Virus record (IMG/VR): IMGVR_UViG_3300017765_000105
Coordinates: 1 to 20,097 of that record
Reading direction: 5' to 3' (one strand)
Length of the DNA stretch: 20,097 nucleotides
Source: a virus
Shown here: one piece after another, positions 1 to 18,277 of the stretch
How positions within the stretch are numbered: position 1 is the first letter of the stretch
How the letters are laid out: the number at the start of each line of letters is the position of its first letter
The notes under the pieces: model-generated
What the model saw: only the letters and a program-made list of their open reading frames with translations
Databases searched by the model: none
Told to the model about the DNA's origin: nothing
Position numbers and translations under genes: made by a program

Positions 1-498
1 CATTTCTTGGATATCCGGATCCATAAGTGCATCTTTAATTAAGTTAAAGATACTAGGGGAGATTACAAACCTTCGAATTGGATTCTCAGGTGCGTCTTCT
101 TGAAGTGTATTCTCGGTAACAAAACCTTGGAATATATAACTACGTTTCTTCCAATATTTTCTACCCATGTCTTCAAGACTCGAATCTTTGAACCAACCAC
201 GTACTTCTGTCAATACAGGACAAGTTTCGTTCCACATCTCAACACACGGTACCTGTACTACAACAGGTTTACTATTCATGTCGTTTCTAACACCAGTAAA
301 TGGTAAACGAATCATAAGCCTTTCAGCCCAGAAAAATGTATTGTTAGGATCGTTATCAGGTAGGAAACGAACTGCTGTAGTTGTTCCTTCTGGTATATTC
401 CAATGTGGGAAGATTGCGTTGTCGCCGCCGCCGGTTCTCTCGCTACGAGATTCTTGTGATTTTAGTTTTGCTCTAATTTCTGCCAAAGATGTTGCCAT
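1..498 (-). CDS. 32: Single-stranded DNA-binding protein gp32 (N-terminal 166 residues, 3' end beyond left edge)
   Basis: Reading the complement from the ATG at 498, the frame stays open for 166 codons to the window edge, so only the C-terminal part is missing. In T4, gp32 coats single-stranded DNA during replication, recombination and repair. The assignment rests on the N-terminal layout: a basic LAST-like start (SLAEIRAKLKSQESRSER), a glycine stretch, then the core signature TTAVRFLPDNDPNNTFFWAE, equivalent to AVIRFLP in T4, followed by a basic and aromatic segment (GRKYWKKRSYIFQGFV) as in the T4 DNA-binding cleft. The T4 zinc site (one His, three Cys) is incomplete: PCVEMWNETCPVL has two cysteines and leucine where the last T4 cysteine would be. 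A strong Shine-Dalgarno (AAGGAG) lies just upstream. The gene follows the porin terminator and has its own promoter region. Confidence 0.85.
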   Translation of the reverse strand, partial: MATSLAEIRAKLKSQESRSERTGGGDNAIFPHWNIPEGTTTAVRFLPDNDPNNTFFWAERLMIRLPFTGVRNDMNSKPVVVQVPCVEMWNETCPVLTEVRGWFKDSSLEDMGRKYWKKRSYIFQGFVTENTLQEDAPENPIRRFVISPSIFNLIKDALMDPDIQEM

Positions 499-549: not shown

Positions 550-568
550 ATACTATATCACATAGTAT
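550..568. promoter_or_regulatory. Palindrome over the -10/start region of the gene 32 promoter (operator candidate)
   Basis: ATACTAT and ATAGTAT form a perfect 7-bp inverted repeat separated by ATCAC. It overlaps the -10 hexamer at 564-569 and covers the expected transcription start, the usual place for a repressor site. It could also form a hairpin at the 5' end of the leader. The protein or role is unknown. Confidence 0.45.
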
Positions 569-592
569 ATGCTACTTTATTTATCAAGTCAA
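564..592 (-). promoter_or_regulatory. sigma70-type promoter for gene 32
   Basis: On the minus strand TTGACT (complement of 587-592) is followed after exactly 17 bases by TATACT (complement of 564-569). Each hexamer matches five of six consensus bases. Predicted start is near 557, giving a leader of roughly 59 nt before the ATG at 498. This would let the host polymerase transcribe gene 32 early, as expected for a replication protein. Confidence 0.7.
578..585 (-). promoter_or_regulatory. Late-type promoter box inside the gene 32 sigma70 spacer
   Basis: GATAAATA on the minus strand matches the T4 late promoter box TATAAATA except at its first base. It sits between the -35 and -10 hexamers of the sigma70 promoter. 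By T4 spacing it would start transcription near 572. Confidence 0.45.
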
Positions 593-593
593 T

Positions 594-623
594 AAAAAAA
601 GGCATAAAAACTGATGCCTTTTT
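594..623 (-). terminator. Rho-independent terminator after the porin gene
   Basis: Complementary arms AAAAAGGCAT (596-605) and ATGCCTTTTT (614-623) flank an 8-base loop. Read on the minus strand, the hairpin is followed by a run of seven T (594-600). It begins about 23 bp past the porin stop codon and separates porin transcription from gene 32. Confidence 0.85.
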
Positions 624-645
624 AAATTATTTTTTTATTAGTTTT

Positions 646-1611
646 TTAGAACGTAGCCGCAATCTTAAATTGGATTACAGAACCATCATCATCAGTTGAT
701 GCTTCTCCGCCGTTCTTATATTCATAGTCTGTATAGTTCACGTAGCCAGTCAACCCTGGAGCAATAGCATATTTAATTTCTGCCATGTGTTGCTTTAGGT
801 TTTCTTTTTCTGTACCAGAAACATCTAAACTATCTTCTGATTCCATTGTTGATACTGCTATAGTCATATCACTGTTTAGTTTATAACTTGCGCCTGCACC
901 TACAGTATCAATGTCCTCATCAGCACCTTCTACTTTACTCATTGCACCAATCAGTGTCATATTACCCAATGCAACTTTTGCACCAATACTGTGTGATTCA
1001 TTATCAATCGCACCAGATACACCTTGTTCAGCCATAGTTGCACCAATAGTAATATTGTCGCCGATTGCTAACTTACCGCCGATAGCAGTAGCATCAGTAT
1101 CGCCTGCAACACCACCGTCCATGTAACTTGCGCCTACAGTAAGTGGGCCTATTGCTGGTGCAATGTATGATACTTTATCTGAATCTGAACCATACGCTTT
1201 TTCACCTGCACTTGATTGGATAGATGCATTTGTATATGTACCTGTGACTTCTTCGTCCATTATATCATGTTCACCAATACCAAAACTACCTGTGACATCA
1301 TCGTTACCGCCTAATGTAATTTTACCAAAGTCGCCTTTGATATACATTGATGATTCGTCAATAGTTGCACTAGAATCTGCAACAGTTGCCATTTCCACAA
1401 CCATGCCATAATCTAATCCTGTTTCTGTTTTGTTTGAGAATGAGAACTTAATCTCGTTATCGGAGTTGCCCATTGAATCACCTTTTTGTGATGCAATTTG
1501 TGAGTCAACGTCCTTGTAGTAAAACTCTGTGCTACCAGAGATTGATACGTCTGCAAGTGCAGTCGTACTTAATAATGCCACTAAAGCGGCACCAGTTAGA
1601 ATTTTCTTCAT
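646..1611 (-). CDS. Phage-encoded Gram-negative outer-membrane porin
   Basis: A 321-residue predicted outer-membrane beta-barrel porin. The N-terminus is a classic Sec signal peptide: MKK, a hydrophobic core (ILTGAALVALLSTTA), and a likely signal-peptidase I site after TALA, giving a mature protein starting DVSISGSTEFYY. Alternating amphipathic strands run throughout (KITLGGNDDV, VSYIAPAIGPLTVGASYMDG, YAIAPGLTGYVNYTDYEYK). The last residues, VIQFKIAATF, end in phenylalanine, the signal recognised by the BAM machinery. The sequence is acidic and glycine-rich, like general-diffusion porins of Proteobacteria. The gene has a late-type box upstream, an AAGGA ribosome site, its own terminator, and the previous gene's terminator upstream, making it a self-contained moron-like cassette. 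Possible roles are changing permeability of the infected cell or replacing the receptor to exclude other phages. The fold is well supported; the role is not. Confidence 0.85.
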   Translation of the reverse strand: MKKILTGAALVALLSTTALADVSISGSTEFYYKDVDSQIASQKGDSMGNSDNEIKFSFSNKTETGLDYGMVVEMATVADSSATIDESSMYIKGDFGKITLGGNDDVTGSFGIGEHDIMDEEVTGTYTNASIQSSAGEKAYGSDSDKVSYIAPAIGPLTVGASYMDGGVAGDTDATAIGGKLAIGDNITIGATMAEQGVSGAIDNESHSIGAKVALGNMTLIGAMSKVEGADEDIDTVGAGASYKLNSDMTIAVSTMESEDSLDVSGTEKENLKQHMAEIKYAIAPGLTGYVNYTDYEYKNGGEASTDDDGSVIQFKIAATF

Positions 1612-1670
1612 TAATTTTTCCTTAAGTTGGGGCTTGATTTCGCTCGTATTTACTTTTTTTCAATACATTT

Positions 1671-1678
1671 TATTTATT
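1671..1678 (-). promoter_or_regulatory. Late-type promoter candidate for the porin gene
   Basis: The minus strand reads TAATAAATA here, close to the T4 late box, and would give a leader of about 50 nt ahead of the AAGGA site and the ATG at 1611. A second TAAATA (complement of 1647-1652, in GTAAATACG) is an alternative. No convincing -35 hexamer was found. Confidence 0.45.
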
Positions 1679-1695
1679 ATAATAAAATTATTTCC

Positions 1696-1723
1696 AAAAA
1701 AAAAGACGGTCAAAAACCGCCTT
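1696..1723 (-). terminator. Rho-independent terminator after the 662-residue protein gene
   Basis: On the minus strand AAGGCGGT (1723-1716), a 5-base loop and ACCGTCTT (1710-1703) pair over eight positions with one G-U wobble, followed by an uninterrupted T run (1702-1696). It lies about 20 bp past the stop codon at 1742 and ends the gp17 operon before the porin gene. Confidence 0.8.
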
Positions 1724-1741
1724 CTTTAATATAATTTGTGC

Positions 1742-3730
1742 TTATTTGTTGTTTCGATCGATGTCCTGTAGTTTACGCATTTGTCTTGCTACTATACTTC
1801 TCGGTGTTATTTGATAGCCTTGTTCGCCTTCATGTATGCCGTGGTTGCTCCTCGCCTTTGACCCTACGCCTGCCATTGCCTTCATTTTTGCAATGCTTTC
1901 CGCCACTTCGTCTACTTCTTCAACTTCTTCAACTTGTGTTTCTGGTTGTGTCTGTTCTACTTGTTCAATTTCAACTGACTGAACATCATCATCTAGAGGT
2001 AATTCCATTTGACCCATTCTGTTTGCATCGGCTATAGCAGACATATACTTGTCATATTCGACACCAAAAGTTCCTACTACGCCATCTAACCAATCCATTA
2101 TAATTGGTCTAGCATCTGCAGTTGGATCTTTATCTCCAGCATCTCCTAAATTGTCATACAATGTATCATCACCAAATGCAAAAGCAATTGCACTTGTTGC
2201 ATCTTCTCCACCATCACCTAATGGTATTGGGTTTTGCATTAATTTATTCATCTTTGCCACTTCTTCATCAGTAGTTGGCAGAGCCCATGTTCCTTCTGTA
2301 ATCATATTCAAACTGTTTTCATATGCTTCAAATGATGTGTCCTCTTTTTTCTCTTTGCCGTATAAATCTTTTTTAGCCGCTTTATCAACTTTATCTACTT
2401 TACCTTGTAAAAATTTCTTAGTAATCTTAATAGCGGCTGCATATTGTTTTTCGTCATCATAGTTTATTCCACCTAGTACATTACCCATTTTATCATCTAC
2501 ATGGTTGTTAGAAATATATTCTATAACATTAATAACTAAATTACGATTTTTATTAGCAGTTGGCATATCGCTATTTTTCATAATATTAAAATAGTTTTTA
2601 AGTTCTTGTTCGTCTGTTTCGTTTTTAAATACTTGTATATTTTCAGAACTGTTTGCTAAAGATACAACATCATTTGCTCTACCTGCCACTTCGGAATCTA
2701 GATCCTTTTCGCTACGTTTTTCTATATCCTGAGGATAATCATCTGGGTTGTAGTTATCCTTATCCATCTTTGCTTCCTTTTTTAAATTTAGTGCTCTGTG
2801 TACTGCTGGTAAACTATCTACCATACGATCATCAAAAACTTGACGTGTAAGTTTTGTTTTTAAATCCTCAATGTCATTTTCTTCAACTTCAATTACATTG
2901 GGTACCCAATTCTCAAAATAACCTTCGTATCCTTTTGAACTACTAATTGCTTTTAATGTATCTTTTAGTCCATAATATCTATCTGTGGCTGCTTCAATAA
3001 CTTCTACTGCGTCTTCACTCACATAATTATTGGATTTAGCACTACGTACAAACTGTTTTAATTGTTGCATCTCTTGCATAATTTCTACAATGTGCATACC
3101 ACGATCGTCGCGTGTGTATCCTTCATTTGAAATATGTCTCGCCATTGCTCTTGCGCCAGGTAGATAATTGTTTGCAAACTTAAAACGTTCTCCTTGACTA
3201 TTCTCAATGTAGATAGCACTTATGTCTCTGCTTCTAGCACCCATTTTCGTCTCATCAACAGTTTTATTGTGCTTAATAATAAGTTTTGCTTTTCCTTGTT
3301 CTAGGAAACTTTTTTGGCTTGTTCCATGTAGTCTGTTTTCCATAACTTCGTCCTGGTTACGTTGTGTTAAGAACTTGTAATCTTTTTTATCAAGTCTTTC
3401 TTTTGTTACATTATGTGTTTCATAGTTCAACATATTTCTTGCACTAAACTTGCTTAGTTCTTTTAAAAAGCCATACCAAGCATCTGCTGTACTACTATCT
3501 GCGTCTTCTACGATACTATTAGGAAAATAAACCTGTAATTTTCCTTCTTCGTTTAAACTAATAGTCACTGCACCAACTGGCAAGTCTTTATGCTTAAAGT
3601 TAAATTCAAAAAATCTTGCTTGACTTGGATCAGTAGTAATACTGCCTTCACTGTTCCCCAACTTGATGTTCGCAACTCTACTACGTATTTTGTCAAACAG
3701 TTCTTCTGATATGTTTTCTATACTTCGCAT
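1742..3730 (-). CDS. Conserved marine T4-like phage protein with the 110-residue module, possible head or structural protein
   Basis: A 662-residue, soluble, highly charged protein with no signal peptide or membrane segment. From memory its first 250 or so residues (RSIENISEELFDKIRSRVAN, then ARFFEFNFKHKDLPVGAVTI and KAKLIIKHNKTVDET) resemble a conserved protein of marine T4-like phages of unknown function. The middle is lysine- and aspartate-rich. Residues 478-587 are a module starting TEGTWALPTTDEEVAKMNKL and ending MELPLDDDVQ, repeated in the protein at 7604-8680. An acidic stretch follows (QVEEVEEVDEVAESIAKMKA), then a basic C-terminus. It directly follows gp17 and is closed by a terminator. 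A late-type box ends five bases before the ATG, so the mRNA may be leaderless. Its place in the packaging/head cluster suggests a virion or assembly role; this is inferred. Confidence 0.75.
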   Translation of the reverse strand: MRSIENISEELFDKIRSRVANIKLGNSEGSITTDPSQARFFEFNFKHKDLPVGAVTISLNEEGKLQVYFPNSIVEDADSSTADAWYGFLKELSKFSARNMLNYETHNVTKERLDKKDYKFLTQRNQDEVMENRLHGTSQKSFLEQGKAKLIIKHNKTVDETKMGARSRDISAIYIENSQGERFKFANNYLPGARAMARHISNEGYTRDDRGMHIVEIMQEMQQLKQFVRSAKSNNYVSEDAVEVIEAATDRYYGLKDTLKAISSSKGYEGYFENWVPNVIEVEENDIEDLKTKLTRQVFDDRMVDSLPAVHRALNLKKEAKMDKDNYNPDDYPQDIEKRSEKDLDSEVAGRANDVVSLANSSENIQVFKNETDEQELKNYFNIMKNSDMPTANKNRNLVINVIEYISNNHVDDKMGNVLGGINYDDEKQYAAAIKITKKFLQGKVDKVDKAAKKDLYGKEKKEDTSFEAYENSLNMITEGTWALPTTDEEVAKMNKLMQNPIPLGDGGEDATSAIAFAFGDDTLYDNLGDAGDKDPTADARPIIMDWLDGVVGTFGVEYDKYMSAIADANRMGQMELPLDDDVQSVEIEQVEQTQPETQVEEVEEVDEVAESIAKMKAMAGVGSKARSNHGIHEGEQGYQITPRSIVARQMRKLQDIDRNNK
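1970..2299. repeat. Long imperfect direct repeat, copy 1 (shared 110-codon module)
   Basis: This stretch encodes residues 478-587 of the 662-residue protein. It aligns without gaps to 7967-8296, 5,997 bp away in the same orientation. By eye the two translations share 90 of 110 residues, and the DNA has long identical runs, for example GAACATCATCATCTAGAGGT near the low-coordinate end. The two copies bracket gp17 and the accessory pair. Confidence 0.9.
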
Positions 3731-3735
3731 ACACG

Positions 3736-3742
3736 TATTTAT
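3736..3742 (-). promoter_or_regulatory. Late-type promoter box touching the start of the 662-residue gene
   Basis: The minus strand reads GATAAATA, then CGTGT, then ATG at 3730. In T4 late promoters the box occupies about -13 to -6, so the A of ATG would be +1. The nearest Shine-Dalgarno-like run (AGGA) is 11 nt from the ATG and overlaps the box, so it would not be in such a transcript. Confidence 0.55.
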
Positions 3743-3743
3743 C

Positions 3744-5309
3744 CTATATCATTATAAATGGCATAGGCTCTTGGTCAAATTCGTCACCGTCTCGTATATA
3801 ATTTTCTAACTCAGGGTGATAGTTTTTAAGTGTTTGTGCCATACGCATTACTAATAATGTACTCATTACTAAGTCATCTGTATCGCCCGCTTTTGCTTTG
3901 AAACTATTACCGGCGGCTATAAAACTTTTCATTTCACTTAGTAACATTTTACTGTTGACTTTTACTTTATCAGTTTCTACAAGTGTTTTAAACTTACTAC
4001 ATATACTAATTTTACTACGATGTGTTGTGTTAAACCCTCTACGATATAATCTACTATTACCATGTACCTTAGGCTCACTTAGAAAGATACCTGGTATATT
4101 TTCTTCACCAATTTCTGCTACACTTTGTAATGCCGCTTCACCTATAGTGTTATTTTCCATACTGTAATATATGTTCATATTATCAACACCTTCATCTAGT
4201 AAATATTTGTTGATGTCAACTAGTATACGAATTTGTTGTGGTATAGGAGTTTTATTATGACTCCATTCTCCTACTTGTTCCATACTAGGTATTTCAAATA
4301 TTTCTATAGCCGCTGGGTCACCTCCTGTTCCTAAACTAGGATCTAGTCCTACAAGGTATGTCATTTGTCTGTTAATTTTTTTATACCAGCGAACAGTGCC
4401 GTGCCTAAATAAAGGTTCTACACCTCTCATGTTGGTTAATGCTAGACTATCTATTAATGTTTCATCATATATGATGAATTCACATTCGTGTTCACGTCTA
4501 AAACGTTCTTCTCCAATACGTTGTAATTCTTCTGCTTTCCATTCTTCATCTCTGTCCGGATGTTCCCACCAATAACTTTGAAAATGTTTAAATCCATTTA
4601 CGCCTAAATCTTGTTCAACACCGTTTTGATCATATGTCTTGTTAGCATCACGCCATATAGTTGCAAATTGATCTTCGTCACTATTAGGTGTACTTGTAAT
4701 AATTGCAGATCCACCTGTTGCTAGTGTAGGTGATATACTTGTCCAAAATTCTTTAGCAATACTAGGTCTAACAAATGCAAACTCATCGCAGTACCATAAT
4801 GTAATAGACATACCTCTTCCTGTATTGTCTGTAGTTGCTTGAGCAATAATTCTACTACCGTTGTCGAAGTCTATGCTTCCTTTATTATAACTAGTGACAC
4901 CAGCACGTATATGATCCGGACAAAGTTCATAAGCATAGCGGATACGTTGCATAATTTCTTGAGCACCAGCATATTTGTGTGCCGCAATTAGTATTACACT
5001 ATCTGGCACAAACATTGCATACCATAACAAGTAACCAGCCGCAGTAGTACTTTTACCTGTTTGCCTTGGTAACATGTTTATATTAAATCTATAATTATGA
5101 TATATATCTAATAATTTGTGTTGATACTCATATGCTTTATACTGCATACGTCCTTGTGTTGGATGTTGTATTGCAAAGTGATTATTCATAAAATAAAAAA
5201 CACCATTTTTTGGGTGAGCACATTTTGCAAATTCGCCAAGTTGCTCCTTAGAAAATTTTTCTTTCTTATATGCTTTTTTTGTTAAATTTTGGTCTAATGG
5301 TTTAACCAT
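3744..5309 (-). CDS. 17: Terminase large subunit gp17 (packaging ATPase and nuclease)
   Basis: The 521-residue motor that pumps DNA into the prohead and cuts the concatemer. The N-terminal ATPase has Walker A LPRQTGKST (residues 80-88), Walker B LWYCDEFAFV with the Asp-Glu pair at 175-176, and the coupling motif STPNS (206-210). The C-terminal RNase H-fold nuclease has its acidic residues in YLVGLDPSLGTGGD (D323), YYSMENNTIGEA (E385) and AGDTDDLVM (D478/D479). It is shorter than T4 gp17 (610 residues), mostly at the N-terminus and C-terminal tail, but keeps all catalytic motifs. The ATG at 5309 lies inside the previous gene (16-bp overlap) behind AAGGA, suggesting translational coupling. It partners the gp16 candidate at 10255-10770. 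Confidence 0.97.
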   Translation of the reverse strand: MVKPLDQNLTKKAYKKEKFSKEQLGEFAKCAHPKNGVFYFMNNHFAIQHPTQGRMQYKAYEYQHKLLDIYHNYRFNINMLPRQTGKSTTAAGYLLWYAMFVPDSVILIAAHKYAGAQEIMQRIRYAYELCPDHIRAGVTSYNKGSIDFDNGSRIIAQATTDNTGRGMSITLWYCDEFAFVRPSIAKEFWTSISPTLATGGSAIITSTPNSDEDQFATIWRDANKTYDQNGVEQDLGVNGFKHFQSYWWEHPDRDEEWKAEELQRIGEERFRREHECEFIIYDETLIDSLALTNMRGVEPLFRHGTVRWYKKINRQMTYLVGLDPSLGTGGDPAAIEIFEIPSMEQVGEWSHNKTPIPQQIRILVDINKYLLDEGVDNMNIYYSMENNTIGEAALQSVAEIGEENIPGIFLSEPKVHGNSRLYRRGFNTTHRSKISICSKFKTLVETDKVKVNSKMLLSEMKSFIAAGNSFKAKAGDTDDLVMSTLLVMRMAQTLKNYHPELENYIRDGDEFDQEPMPFIMI

Positions 5310-5719
5310 GTAACATCCTTAAAATGTGATTTTGCTGGTCTAGTACTTATACGTATAACTTTTACTACTATTTCAAAATTATTAGATATATCTTCAAACA
5401 TACGCATTCGTAATTGTTTCCCTGCATTTCCGTAACTACTTTTACCAATTGTTGTTAAATATGTTTTATTTCCATACTTAGGAAATACACCTCTCACAAA
5501 TAAACAAACGTCTGCTAAATCTTTACAAGGCATTGTGCCTTTCATATATGCTTCTATAAAAGTAGGATTGGGTAAGAAGTCTGGTTCGTCTACAAACGAT
5601 CCTAATAGAATTGCTACATATGCTTCAATATCTTCGGGTAAAGTATACCCTTCTTGTCGACTACTTTCGTTTATGCAATCTCTGAAAACCGATACATACT
5701 CGTCCTTAATATATCTCAT
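5294..5719 (-). CDS. Small conserved-looking protein upstream of gp17, function unknown
   Basis: A 141-residue soluble protein without a recognised domain. It begins MRYIKDEYVSVFRDCINESS, has a proline-rich middle (PDFLPNPTFIEAYMKGTMPC) and a basic C-terminal part (GNAGKQLRMRMFED, ISTRPAKSHFKDVTWLNH). Its last 16 bp overlap the start of gene 17, so the two are probably co-translated and the protein may serve packaging or head assembly; this is inferred from position only. There is no Shine-Dalgarno. A late-type box ends five bases before the ATG, and no alternative Met codon occurs nearby in frame. Confidence 0.8.
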   Translation of the reverse strand: MRYIKDEYVSVFRDCINESSRQEGYTLPEDIEAYVAILLGSFVDEPDFLPNPTFIEAYMKGTMPCKDLADVCLFVRGVFPKYGNKTYLTTIGKSSYGNAGKQLRMRMFEDISNNFEIVVKVIRISTRPAKSHFKDVTWLNH

Positions 5720-5724
5720 ATTAA

Positions 5725-5731
5725 TATTTAT
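5725..5731 (-). promoter_or_regulatory. Late-type promoter box touching the start of the 141-residue gene
   Basis: The minus strand reads AATAAATA, then TTAAT, then ATG at 5719, the same five-base spacing as at 3736-3742. The box overlaps the stop codon of the glycosyltransferase gene. No Shine-Dalgarno is visible upstream. Confidence 0.5.
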
Positions 5732-6792
5732 TAAGCACGAAAATTGGTTAAACTATCTTCCAAGCTGTCAATTAAAAGACTTTGTTCGTCTATTGACTGT
5801 TGACGAAGGTCTTTAAACAGACTTAGATTTTGTTTTAATCTATTAGGGTCTATATCAAACTTTACAGGTAACATATTAGATACAAAATTAATTTTTTCAT
5901 TAGTAGGCATACTATCGTACTCTAAATTTAATACATCATCAAATACATCAAATCCTAATTTTTTTAAAAGTTTAGTAGTATTATTTCCTAAATTTATAAA
6001 AGGATGTTGTGCTATTATAGGTTTAAAACTTTTTTCTGTGATAAAAACTGTTTTAGCCCAATATGTTTCTAGAATAACACTATAGTCGGTTTGGTCATAC
6101 CAGTTTATATTTCCTATTGTATAAAAGTCTGTATTTCTTTCAATAGATTGTGTTATATCTTCATATAGTTGTAGAGGCAAATTATTTGTACACCAATCTA
6201 TAAATTTTGGTTCAAGTGTATGCGTAAATTCGCTATCTATAAATCTTTGAGGTTTAATTATTTGATCGACAGTCCGTGCTATTCTACCATTATTCTCTGT
6301 ATTAATTTGTCCTAAATAACTTATTAAGTTTTCTAGTTTATTCTGTTTCCATAAACTTTGTAAAAATTGTATGCGTTCACTTTTATGATTACGCATCATA
6401 CATAAGAATTTTTTACCTACAGTAAATGAAGCAGGTCTGCTAGATTCAATTAAATCATAATGTAAACCATATTGCTTTTCCCACCCTATGACATGTTGTT
6501 TTTCATGTGTGCCTGCATATCTTACATCAGAAGTAATTATTATAAAGTTTAGATCACTATCATCTAAAAATTTTGTAATTATATCACGTGCAGGATCCCA
6601 CCAACAATATACTATCACTGTACCTTTGTACCATTTTTTTAAGTGGCTTATACTAGGCATATTCATAGTATCAGTATACCATACATTATGCAAAGGCCCT
6701 GTGCGTTTTAGTATACTACGTAAAAATATTCCTTGAGGAGTATTATGTTTATAATGAAAGTTATCACGACTTAGACTTAATTGTGTCGACAT
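5731..6792 (-). CDS. GT10 (fucosyltransferase-like) glycosyltransferase-type protein
   Basis: A 353-residue protein with features of the GT10-like enzymes found in phages and large viruses. KKFLCMMRNHKSER (127-140) resembles the segment at the start of the donor-binding half, and FITEKSFKPIIAQHPFI (250-266), followed by LKKLGFDVFDD, matches the nucleotide-sugar-binding signature (TEK, K, HPFI, GF.F). The N-terminal half is diverged and gives no clear acceptor domain. No signal peptide or membrane segment, so it should act in the host cytoplasm. Its start lies 29 bp inside the SGNH gene, with no clear ribosome site, suggesting coupled translation of the pair. Plausible substrates are virion proteins, host glycans or phage DNA; none is shown. 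GT10-like membership is fairly secure, sugar specificity is not. Confidence 0.65.
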   Translation of the reverse strand: MSTQLSLSRDNFHYKHNTPQGIFLRSILKRTGPLHNVWYTDTMNMPSISHLKKWYKGTVIVYCWWDPARDIITKFLDDSDLNFIIITSDVRYAGTHEKQHVIGWEKQYGLHYDLIESSRPASFTVGKKFLCMMRNHKSERIQFLQSLWKQNKLENLISYLGQINTENNGRIARTVDQIIKPQRFIDSEFTHTLEPKFIDWCTNNLPLQLYEDITQSIERNTDFYTIGNINWYDQTDYSVILETYWAKTVFITEKSFKPIIAQHPFINLGNNTTKLLKKLGFDVFDDVLNLEYDSMPTNEKINFVSNMLPVKFDIDPNRLKQNLSLFKDLRQQSIDEQSLLIDSLEDSLTNFRA

Positions 6793-7603: not shown

Positions 7604-8680
7604 TTATTTTTCTGCTTCTTCTAAAAAATCTTTGTAACTTTTGTAAAGTTTTTCTTCTACTGCTTCCATAGTTTCTTCAACTTCACGTGGCTCCTGGTTC
7701 ATTGGATTGTCACCGTCTGCACTTGCAGGATACATTTTCTTAGGACCATTTAATCCGCCACTTAGACCAATTAATTGATCTTCTACACTACTATATTCTT
7801 CTTCAGGCTCATTAGCATACTCTTGTATTTTATCTGCATAGTTTTCGTAACCTGCTAGTTGTAAAATATCTTGTAGTTCTTGCACTGGTACAGATACCAT
7901 TGCGTCAACTGCTTCTTCGTCACAACCACAATCATCTTCCATTTCAATATCTTGTTGTTGTACGTCTTCAATTGTTTGAACATCATCATCTAGAGGTAAT
8001 TCCATTTGTCCCGGTCTGTTTGCATCTGCTATAGCAGACAAGTACTTGTCATATTCGACACCAAAAGTTCCTTTTACAGTATCTAAGTATTTCTGTATGA
8101 TTGGTCTAGCATCTCCAGTTGGATCTTTATACCCGTCAGTTGCTAAATCGTCATACAATGTATCATCACCAAATGCAAAAGAAATTGCATTAATTGCATC
8201 TTTCCCGCCATCACCTAATGGAATAGGATCTTGCATTAATTTATTCATCTTTGCTACTTCTTCATCAGTAGTTGGTAAAGCCCATGTTCCTTCTGTAACC
8301 GTTGCTTCTGGCTCTTGAACATCCTCGTCTGCTCTGTCTATGATTTCTTGTTTAATCTCATCATACAAGTCGCCTCTACCTGGATATTCTTTTTCAAAGT
8401 CTTCTTTGTCCATGCCATCCTCAATGTCAATCATCATGTTCTTGTAACTACCTTTACCCTCGTCTAGTGTATCCTCTTCAATACCATCTAGTCTATCCAT
8501 GTATTCACGCATGTCTTCCATTTTGCCTGACATTTTCATTTTCTTTTTCTTTAGAGTAGGATTCTTTTCTATGCCTGGTTCAGCATATTTAGATGGAGTT
8601 GGAGTTGTACGACCAATGTCCATTCCGCCGCCTCCCATTTTGTCCATTTTACTCATTTTTGGCTTTATTACTATAGGCAT
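7604..8680 (-). CDS. Modular acidic protein sharing a 110-residue module with the 662-residue protein
   Basis: A 358-residue soluble protein of unknown function. Residues 1-60 are basic and methionine/glycine-rich (KMSKMDKMGGGGMDIGRTTP, KKKKMKMSGKMEDMREYMDR). Residues 60-128 are acidic. Residues 129-238 are the shared module (TEGTWALPTTDEEVAKMNKL to LPLDDDVQTIE). Then comes a cysteine-bearing acidic link (MEDDCGCDEEAVDAM), a helical part (VPVQELQDILQLAGYENYAD), a segment LSGGLNGPKKMYPASADGDN, and a C-terminal helix YKSYKDFLEEAEK. The start overlaps the LysM-like gene by 10 bp behind GGGGAAG, so the two are coupled; a terminator follows. The cluster position and the N-terminal cationic/C-terminal acidic build suggest a scaffold or internal head component, as inference. 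Confidence 0.75.
   Translation of the reverse strand: MPIVIKPKMSKMDKMGGGGMDIGRTTPTPSKYAEPGIEKNPTLKKKKMKMSGKMEDMREYMDRLDGIEEDTLDEGKGSYKNMMIDIEDGMDKEDFEKEYPGRGDLYDEIKQEIIDRADEDVQEPEATVTEGTWALPTTDEEVAKMNKLMQDPIPLGDGGKDAINAISFAFGDDTLYDDLATDGYKDPTGDARPIIQKYLDTVKGTFGVEYDKYLSAIADANRPGQMELPLDDDVQTIEDVQQQDIEMEDDCGCDEEAVDAMVSVPVQELQDILQLAGYENYADKIQEYANEPEEEYSSVEDQLIGLSGGLNGPKKMYPASADGDNPMNQEPREVEETMEAVEEKLYKSYKDFLEEAEK
7967..8296. repeat. Long imperfect direct repeat, copy 2 (shared 110-codon module)
   Basis: Encodes residues 129-238 of the 358-residue protein and pairs without gaps with 1970-2299. Both ends fall inside coding sequence: identity starts abruptly at the TEGTWALP codons and ends just after the PLDDDVQ codons. 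This points to duplication of a domain rather than a whole gene. Confidence 0.9.
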
Positions 8681-9720
8681 GTTTTCTTCCCCGTGATTTG
8701 TTCTATCATTGTTTTAGTTGGTTGTTTACTACTCATATCTGGCATTTTTTTATTAGCAAGTTTTGTATTACTTTTATAAGGATTTATACCCATATCTCTT
8801 TGTTTAGTTTCTTTTCTGCGATCTGCATAATTTTGTGGCTTTTTATTTCCACCGCCTACAAACTTATTAAAGGCTTTTTGCATATCACCAAATTTATAGT
8901 TTTTTACTGCATCAGGAACAAATTTTCCTAATCCTGTGAATGGGTTACCTATTACAGAATCGTTATCATTCTTAGGTGTATAGGTACCATCTTTATTTTG
9001 AACATACTGGTTAGGCATATTTCTTGGATCATTTTTATCTATATTTTTACTAGGGGGTGCCAGTGGCATTACACCGGTTGGTTTATCTTTAATTTTTTTA
9101 TCAGGACTAAAAGGATTTCCCGGACTACCTTTTTGACTTGGAGTTATTTTTTTATCAGGACTAAAAGGATTTCCTGGACTATCTTTTTGACTTGGTGCAG
9201 TATCCTGTTTTCTATTTTTCATAAGTAATCTATACTTTTCTGCAATACCACTTAGTGTATCACCTTTTTTAACTGTATAATTTTTTCCGTTAGGTAATTT
9301 TACTTTTTGTCCAATGTTTATTTTATTAGGATCTTTTATTCCACTGAGTTTTGCAAGTGTATTATAAGTTACACGTTCGTCGATGTTTTGCATATCGTCC
9401 TCTGTTGCATGAGATTTCATTGCATGAGAACCGCCACTCTTTTCAAGTCTATCGAACATGTCAGACATGTCTTGTTTTTCTTGGTCTGTTACTGCATCCA
9501 TGCCAAATATCATTTGTAATTCATCTATAGGAAATTCAAGTATATCATCTTCTTTATCTGTGTCTATATCTCTAATAACAACAGTGTTTCCGTCTAAATC
9601 AATAACCTCACCTCTTGCACCTGTAGTATGTTTAACACGATCACCAAGTTCAAGATCTCCTTGTTGAAGACCTTCATTTATTTTGCGTAAAGAGTCAATT
9701 GCTTTGTATAAATCTAGCAT
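8671..9720 (-). CDS. LysM-like protein with an SH3-like N-terminal part and tandem proline repeats
   Basis: A 349-residue basic protein. Residues 20-70 (LGDRVKHTTGARGEVIDLDG, NTVVIRDID) look like a small SH3/KOW-type beta-barrel. Residues 118-143 (NTLAKLSGIKDPNKINIGQK) match the second half of a LysM motif, and 147-163 (NYTVKKGDTLSGIAEKY) match the first half, so the halves occur in swapped order. Residues 175-210 are two 18-residue tandem repeats of the form PSQK-SPGNPFSPDKKI. The rest is lysine-, asparagine- and proline-rich and looks disordered. LysM domains bind peptidoglycan or chitin glycan; in tailed phages they occur in baseplate/tail and lysis proteins. No catalytic domain is visible. 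The ATG abuts the TAG of the preceding gene. Confidence 0.65.
   Translation of the reverse strand: MLDLYKAIDSLRKINEGLQQGDLELGDRVKHTTGARGEVIDLDGNTVVIRDIDTDKEDDILEFPIDELQMIFGMDAVTDQEKQDMSDMFDRLEKSGGSHAMKSHATEDDMQNIDERVTYNTLAKLSGIKDPNKINIGQKVKLPNGKNYTVKKGDTLSGIAEKYRLLMKNRKQDTAPSQKDSPGNPFSPDKKITPSQKGSPGNPFSPDKKIKDKPTGVMPLAPPSKNIDKNDPRNMPNQYVQNKDGTYTPKNDNDSVIGNPFTGLGKFVPDAVKNYKFGDMQKAFNKFVGGGNKKPQNYADRRKETKQRDMGINPYKSNTKLANKKMPDMSSKQPTKTMIEQITGKKTCL
9091..9198. repeat. Two tandem 54-bp repeats within the LysM-like gene
   Basis: Two adjacent, nearly identical 54-bp units (9145-9198 and 9091-9144) encode APSQKDSPGNPFSPDKKI and TPSQKGSPGNPFSPDKKI. DNA differences are few, for example TTTCCCGGACTACC against TTTCCTGGACTATC. 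The high DNA identity suggests a recent slippage duplication, and copy number could vary between related phages. Confidence 0.9.
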
Positions 9721-17947: not shown

Positions 17948-18277
17948 ATGAGACCGGTTTGTGACACATGTGGGCAACGTCCAAAAGCAGTGAATTATCA
18001 TAAAGGTGATATAACATATTATAGGAAAAAGTGTGAGCAATGCCTTAAGTCACACAAACCTGTTAAACCATTATGGTTTGAAAGTGGTTATAAAGTTAAA
18101 AGAAAATGCGAAGCATGTGGCTTTAAGCCTACTGTGAGGAATCAAGTCACTATTTTTTATATCGATGGAAATTTAAATAATGTCAGCAACCGTAATCTGA
18201 AAACTGTATGTTTAAATTGCAATCAGGAGTTGATAAGGTTTGGTTGGAACCGAGGTGATCTAACACCTGATGTTTAA
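17948..18277 (+). CDS. Small double zinc-ribbon, degenerate HNH-like protein
   Basis: A 109-residue basic protein and the only clear gene on the plus strand. It has four CxxC knuckles forming two likely zinc sites: C5/C8 with C29/C32 (VCDTCG, KCEQC) and C54/C57 with C88/C91 (KCEACG, VCLNC). The segment FYIDGNLNNVSNRNLKTVCLNC has the HNH-nuclease layout (dipeptide, DGN, N, NL, CxxC), but Phe-Tyr replaces the His-His pair and Asn follows the last Cys in place of His. Nuclease activity is thus unlikely; DNA or RNA binding is plausible. From memory related proteins occur in marine T4-like phages. Its last 95 bp overlap the dNMP kinase gene tail to tail, and it diverges from gp18. Confidence 0.75.
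   Translation: MRPVCDTCGQRPKAVNYHKGDITYYRKKCEQCLKSHKPVKPLWFESGYKVKRKCEACGFKPTVRNQVTIFYIDGNLNNVSNRNLKTVCLNCNQELIRFGWNRGDLTPDV

Follow-up and report, generated by a model that had tools for sequence, protein, structure and literature searches.

Porins are the nutrient gates of Gram-negative cells and also serve as receptors for phages. Lambdoid phages and prophages carry porin genes, PA-2 Lc and NmpC, whose products could replace the porins of the host. Viruses of oxygen-minimum zones encode OmpL, the gene for which adjoins glnK-amtB and is of Bacteroidetes origin (PMC8115048). In the literature on phage porins we found nothing closer to the present case than that report, and a paper on marine jumbo phages (PMC9123017) gave no hit for 'porin' or 'outer membrane'.

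Here we describe a porin gene on a viral contig of 20,097 nucleotides (IMG/VR record IMGVR_UViG_3300017765_000105), the whole of which we refer to as the window. We conclude that the product of this gene is probably a functional general-diffusion porin of the alphaproteobacterial Porin_4 type, and that the gene probably travels as a single-gene late unit in some environmental jumbo phages of one clade.

The porin gene and its transcription unit

The interval 594-1723, which the original prediction had given for the porin, contains a single gene of 321 codons on the minus strand (646-1611) and is correct as the span of the gene plus its flanks. The features of the locus are as follows.

1..498, minus strand: downstream neighbour, gp32-like ssDNA-binding protein, truncated where the window ends (phrog_1192, E=8e-34)
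564..592, minus strand: gp32 promoter region, TTGACT-17-TATACT, with a late box at 578-584 (conserved in the porin-less relative L215)
596..623, minus strand: porin terminator hairpin, a 10-bp stem followed by a T run (from sequence and fold)
646..1611, minus strand: porin coding sequence, 321 aa, stop included in the coordinates (Porin_4 E=6.6e-31; translation; 16-strand AlphaFold2 model)
1552..1611, minus strand: signal peptide of residues 1-20, cleaved after ALA (from sequence; a 20-aa ALA-ending signal occurs in all phage relatives)
1612..1632, minus strand: porin leader with ribosome-binding site, CCCCAACTTAAGGAAAAATTA (resembles the leaders of porins at other slots)
1671..1677, minus strand: putative late-promoter-like box ATAAATA of the porin (inferred motif; box and leader recur in contexts A, B and D, see below)
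1696..1726, minus strand: terminator hairpin of the upstream gene, separating that gene from the porin (fold -12.7 kcal/mol)
1742..3730, minus strand: upstream neighbour, 662-aa virion-structural-like protein (phrog_13484, E=3.8e-16)
3744..5309, minus strand: terminase large subunit, gp17 (phrog_36964, E=1e-119; closest deposited relatives are PA5oct-type jumbo phages)

The presence of a porin gene in the window is real and confirmed, and the prediction of a complete porin with an ALA-type signal peptide and a terminal Phe was borne out. Removal of the signal peptide (MKKILTGAALVALLSTTALA, cleaved before D) leaves a mature part of 301 residues, the last of which is Phe. Both the Sec signal peptide and the C-terminal aromatic residue (for BAM) are present in the window porin and in all full-length relatives. 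The protein matched the Pfam family Porin_4 (PF13609, Gram-negative porin family) over nearly its full length with 108.7 bits, against a curated cut-off of 27 bits, and matched no other Pfam family. Ten of 11 porin relatives passed the same cut-off, and the remaining one is a fragment. A PHROG search of the porin gave no convincing family (best E=0.02 over 20 residues), and searches with PADLOC and NCBIfam gave no match.

The predicted structure is the 16-strand barrel that had been anticipated. The best of five AlphaFold2 models of the mature window porin (pLDDT 73.5, pTM 0.69) has 16 strands and a long, low-confidence L3-type loop between strands 5 and 6 (mature residues 81-125). Because the alignment was shallow (the mature proteins of 11 closely related viral sequences) and the other four models were weaker (pLDDT 41-51), the details of the loops are not trustworthy. 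An initial model, which included signal peptides and near-duplicates, was poor (pLDDT 48), yet it also matched 16-strand porins. Using Foldseek and VIA-align, the model groups with trimeric 16-strand porins, with VIA Z scores of 24-26 over ~280 residues against PorB, Omp32 and BpsOmp38. A mixed profile built from phage and cellular sequences retrieves 2POR (E=1e-13) as well as Omp32 (E=7e-11), the latter in a collinear match along the barrel.

The gene had also been proposed to form an insulated unit under late-type control. Insulation holds: the hairpin terminators on the two sides fold at -11.8 and -12.7 kcal/mol, the gp32 promoter region begins directly after the porin terminator, and the porin has its own ATAAATA box 66 nt before the gene. 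Late-type control is supported by the distribution of this motif. ATAAATA occurs at nine sites in the window; every one lies on the coding strand, with a start codon 12-86 nt downstream. This bias in strand and position has P ~1e-11 in a simple binomial calculation, while the motif as a whole is no more frequent than expected by chance.

Carrier phages and the three porin slots

Judged from its genes, the carrier appears to be a relative of jumbo phages and is not an ordinary T4-like phage. The window terminase is 52% identical over 96% to that of PA5oct (286 kb). The IMG/VR contig G004 shares with the window its terminase (63% identity), gp18 (54%), gp19 (65%) and gp32 (63%); its 328 kb, beyond the 200 kb that mark a jumbo phage, are the size of this relative, the window being a 20 kb fragment. 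The original description as T4-like therefore stands in the wide sense only. The carriers are environmental, probably marine, giant bacteriophages; their marine origin was an assumption of the first reading. The porin family, the sole pointer to a host, would suggest an alphaproteobacterial affinity; the tRNAs of relatives (Thr, Trp and Arg in G004) gave no host, and ClpX was uninformative as a host marker.

Two further observations concern the window itself. The 662-aa protein and a 358-aa protein share a segment of ~138 residues with roughly 70% identity (1970-2377 and 7966-8378, minus strand), a domain duplicated within one phage. The sole plausible plus-strand gene is a 109-aa Cys-rich, HNH-like ORF (17948-18277), which overlaps the 3' end of a dNMP-kinase-like gene.

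We identified the same porin family on 21 further IMG/VR contigs from many metagenomes. In these phages the porin occupies three slots: before gp32, after gp23, or beside ClpX, Hsp20 and ClpS. We distinguished four contexts. The porin lies before gp32 in context A (window type; L001-L004, L018, L019) and in context B (terminase 69% identical; L012-L017), near ClpX, Hsp20 and ClpS in context C (L005, L011, L020), and after gp23 in context D (L006-L010), where the gp23 neighbour was checked in L006 and L010 while L007-L009 were assigned from the sequences of porin and leader. A B-like porin, 93% identical to that of L017, is also present on the fragment L022.

Several of these contigs have identical junctions, so the window porin is not an assembly chimera, the outcome that would have undone the original prediction. 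We give almost no credence to the broader idea that the gene is an artefact of assembly, or bacterial DNA misbinned as viral. One contig does speak for it: L004 joins an L005-like (slot-C-like) signal peptide to a window-type mature part near the contig end and may itself be an assembly chimera. Against it stand not only the repeated junctions from several metagenomes but also the mid-contig position of the porin in the 328 kb phage and the failure to find a close cellular copy.

Most relatives do not carry the porin. Among 67 contigs having both terminase and gp32, it is present at the gp32 slot in two and absent from 65, and the relatives without porin show clean empty sites. For instance, L215 has no porin at this slot although its terminase and gp32 are 85% and 98% identical. 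At the second slot, an after-gp23 porin was found in one of 80 gp23 loci, on a contig already in the porin set. G004, which includes L011, has a single porin, in slot C, and its other two slots are empty. The placement of the gene between gp17 and gp32 thus holds in the window, but the porin is not fixed there.

The signals around the gene recur at the different slots. Contexts A, B and D have similar leaders (ATAAATA-AAATG ... CCCCAACTTAAGGA). Contexts C and D have in common the terminator core GCACCTTCGGGTGC followed by a T-run, of which B has close variants; G004 contains it once in its 328 kb. We therefore read the porin as a single transcription unit that takes its own signals along when it moves. 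The kinship of the porins also crosses slots: among slot-C copies, that of L005 is closest to the window porin (89%) and that of L011 is closest to the slot-D copies (88%). Therefore, either alleles were exchanged or the cassette moved more than once.

The surroundings of the slots have contents of their own. In eight relatives (L214, L218, L243, L246, L253, L255, L261 and L282) other accessory genes, one of them a radical-SAM-like sequence, lie between terminase and gp32, a slot that is an insertion hot spot in relatives. In slot-C phages ClpX, Hsp20 and ClpS are encoded together and adjoin the porin (L011:1469-2683, 5640-6083 and 6141-6446). A few genes from the porin, L011 also encodes a 786-aa FG-GAP-repeat protein with a lipoprotein-like signal (LSAC) and a terminal Phe (3096-5456), possibly a second phage-borne outer-membrane protein. 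In L006 a sulfotransferase-like gene (marginal Pfam match; 9039-9638, minus strand) lies antiparallel directly after the slot-D porin; it is absent from the corresponding site in G004.

Origin, selection and possible roles

When placed in one tree together with 50 cellular porins, the phage copies group in a single clade (100/100), which branches within the alphaproteobacterial porins on a long stem. The cellular sequence nearest to this clade is attached through long branches, and its position should not be relied on. The cellular relatives that we found are at most ~35% identical to the phage porins. Profile searches of ~1,200 sampled genomes of Alphaproteobacteria and Pseudomonadota (385 genomes of the class, 398 of the phylum, plus four order-level searches) returned distant relatives and no close copy, and a genome scan for close host porin copies likewise gave none. 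A plasmid search gave two matches, both with E above 0.1, and viral contigs scanned with a cellular porin as query gave no match. The porin has no match in ~50,700 deposited phage records, which agrees with the original statement that no described example was known in this phage group.

One may ask whether the gene is a passenger, acquired by chance from a host, slowly being lost and of no benefit to the phage. Its patchy distribution, with so few occupied gp32 slots, is what such a history would leave. Selection points the other way: pairwise dN/dS between porin alleles is 0.05-0.30 (one pair with the doubtful L004 reaches 0.36), and the gene is intact in every full-length copy. Moreover, the promoter and terminator are retained at several slots, the codon GC3 is similar to that of the phage's other genes, and the copies belong to one old phage clade. 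We consider a passenger very unlikely.

A late-made functional porin that changes the permeability of the outer membrane, its receptors or both is the most likely reading. Late in infection, the porin would be transcribed from its own ATAAATA promoter; the product would be exported by the Sec and BAM machinery of the host and enter the outer membrane as a 16-strand barrel that is presumably trimeric. By supplementing or displacing the host porins, it would alter both the permeability to small solutes and the porin loops exposed as receptors. A self-contained porin unit that sits at three places across related genomes suggests that the carriers rebuild the cell surface late in infection. The original prediction had put forward nutrient influx, receptor masking and readiness for lysis as possible benefits. 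To us, solute uptake in the course of a long infection seems about as likely as surface remodelling, which could dilute receptors or protect either the infected cell or the progeny released from it.

Two features of the sequence bear on this choice. The mature parts of six representative phage porins contain 0-1 arginine, versus 2-16 in 50 cellular relatives. The mature window porin has none where ~13 would be expected in 301 residues from the window's other proteins, and columns rich in arginine in cellular porins hold K, N, S, A, V or E in the phage copies. The arginine cluster facing an acidic L3 in the eyelet of general-diffusion porins is therefore impossible here and was not found in the window porin. 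The protein is also very acidic (pI ~4.05). In addition, conservation among phage alleles is higher in the outward half of the barrel than in the inward half (0.81 vs 0.70, beyond all 300 label rotations), in a split of few alleles that counts L3 as outward although L3 folds inward. The outward-minus-inward contrast in four cellular sets was -0.13, +0.06, -0.03 and +0.02.

If surface exclusion were the main role, replacing or diluting the host porins would prevent adsorption by competing phages or by the progeny that the phage itself releases at lysis. The late-type control and accessory distribution fit this, as do the cell-surface and regulatory genes nearby (sulfotransferase-like in context D; ClpX, Hsp20 and ClpS in context C), the shortening of some loops relative to cellular homologues and the precedent of the lambdoid PA-2 Lc porin. 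The conserved outward half does not fit, since a surface in an arms race is expected to vary. We hold exclusion as a serious possibility, a little short of even. Solute influx as the main role, in which the porin would serve a long jumbo-phage infection as an auxiliary metabolic gene, is possible but somewhat more doubtful to us. It would accord with a channel family (Porin_4, with profile matches to 2POR and Omp32), with strong purifying selection, and with a low pI and near-absence of arginine that would favour the passage of cations. However, the model behind the predicted pore is shallow, the porin is missing from most relatives, and the inner half of the barrel is not where conservation concentrates.

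A bolder and rather unlikely reading joins the two features above: a dedicated phage porin, near-free of arginine and with a conserved outer face, might be exchanged among jumbo phages as a slot-jumping one-gene late cassette and swap the porins of the infected cell. Were this true, it would be a general device for late surface remodelling in lytic phages. If the most likely reading holds, a late porin of its own would give a lytic jumbo phage a direct means to reprogram permeability and receptor display. Relocation among three slots with a conserved promoter and terminator is a natural example of the movement of a single-gene cassette in large phage genomes.

Comparison with described porins and phages

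The phage porin resembles the porins of Rhodobacter capsulatus (2POR) and Rh. blastica (1PRN) in its Porin_4 family, its 16-strand fold with L3, its signal peptide and its C-terminal Phe. It differs from alphaproteobacterial general porins in its low identity (at most ~35%), in some shorter loops and in having 0-1 arginine. Omp32 of Delftia/Comamonas acidovorans (1E54/2FGQ), Neisseria PorB and Vibrio OmpU have a like fold (VIA Z 24-26, rmsd 2.2-2.7), but the phage porin is 12-20% identical to them and has no possible eyelet arginine cluster.

PA-2 Lc and NmpC belong to the enterobacterial OmpC/OmpF family and to temperate phages, whereas here the family is of alphaproteobacterial type and the carriers are apparently lytic jumbo phages, with the gene in a mobile late cassette. 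The window falls outside the PA-2 Lc and NmpC group, as its terminase and gene order are those of T4-superfamily jumbo phages and its porin matches only Porin_4 in Pfam. Jumbo phages of the PA5oct, Atu_ph07, Phosso and 121Q types have terminases 43-52% identical to that of the window and no detectable porin of the window family.

The viral OmpL (PMC8115048) is alike in being a predicted porin from contigs of uncultured marine or environmental phages. The OmpC-type phage proteins of BFVD (A0A6J5L4P1 and A0A6J5LP82) are also predicted phage-contig porins, 13-17% identical to ours. Because these entries and the OmpL viruses exist, phage-encoded porins in general are not new. What is new here is the sequence family of the porin, its occurrence in jumbo phages and its mobile late cassette.
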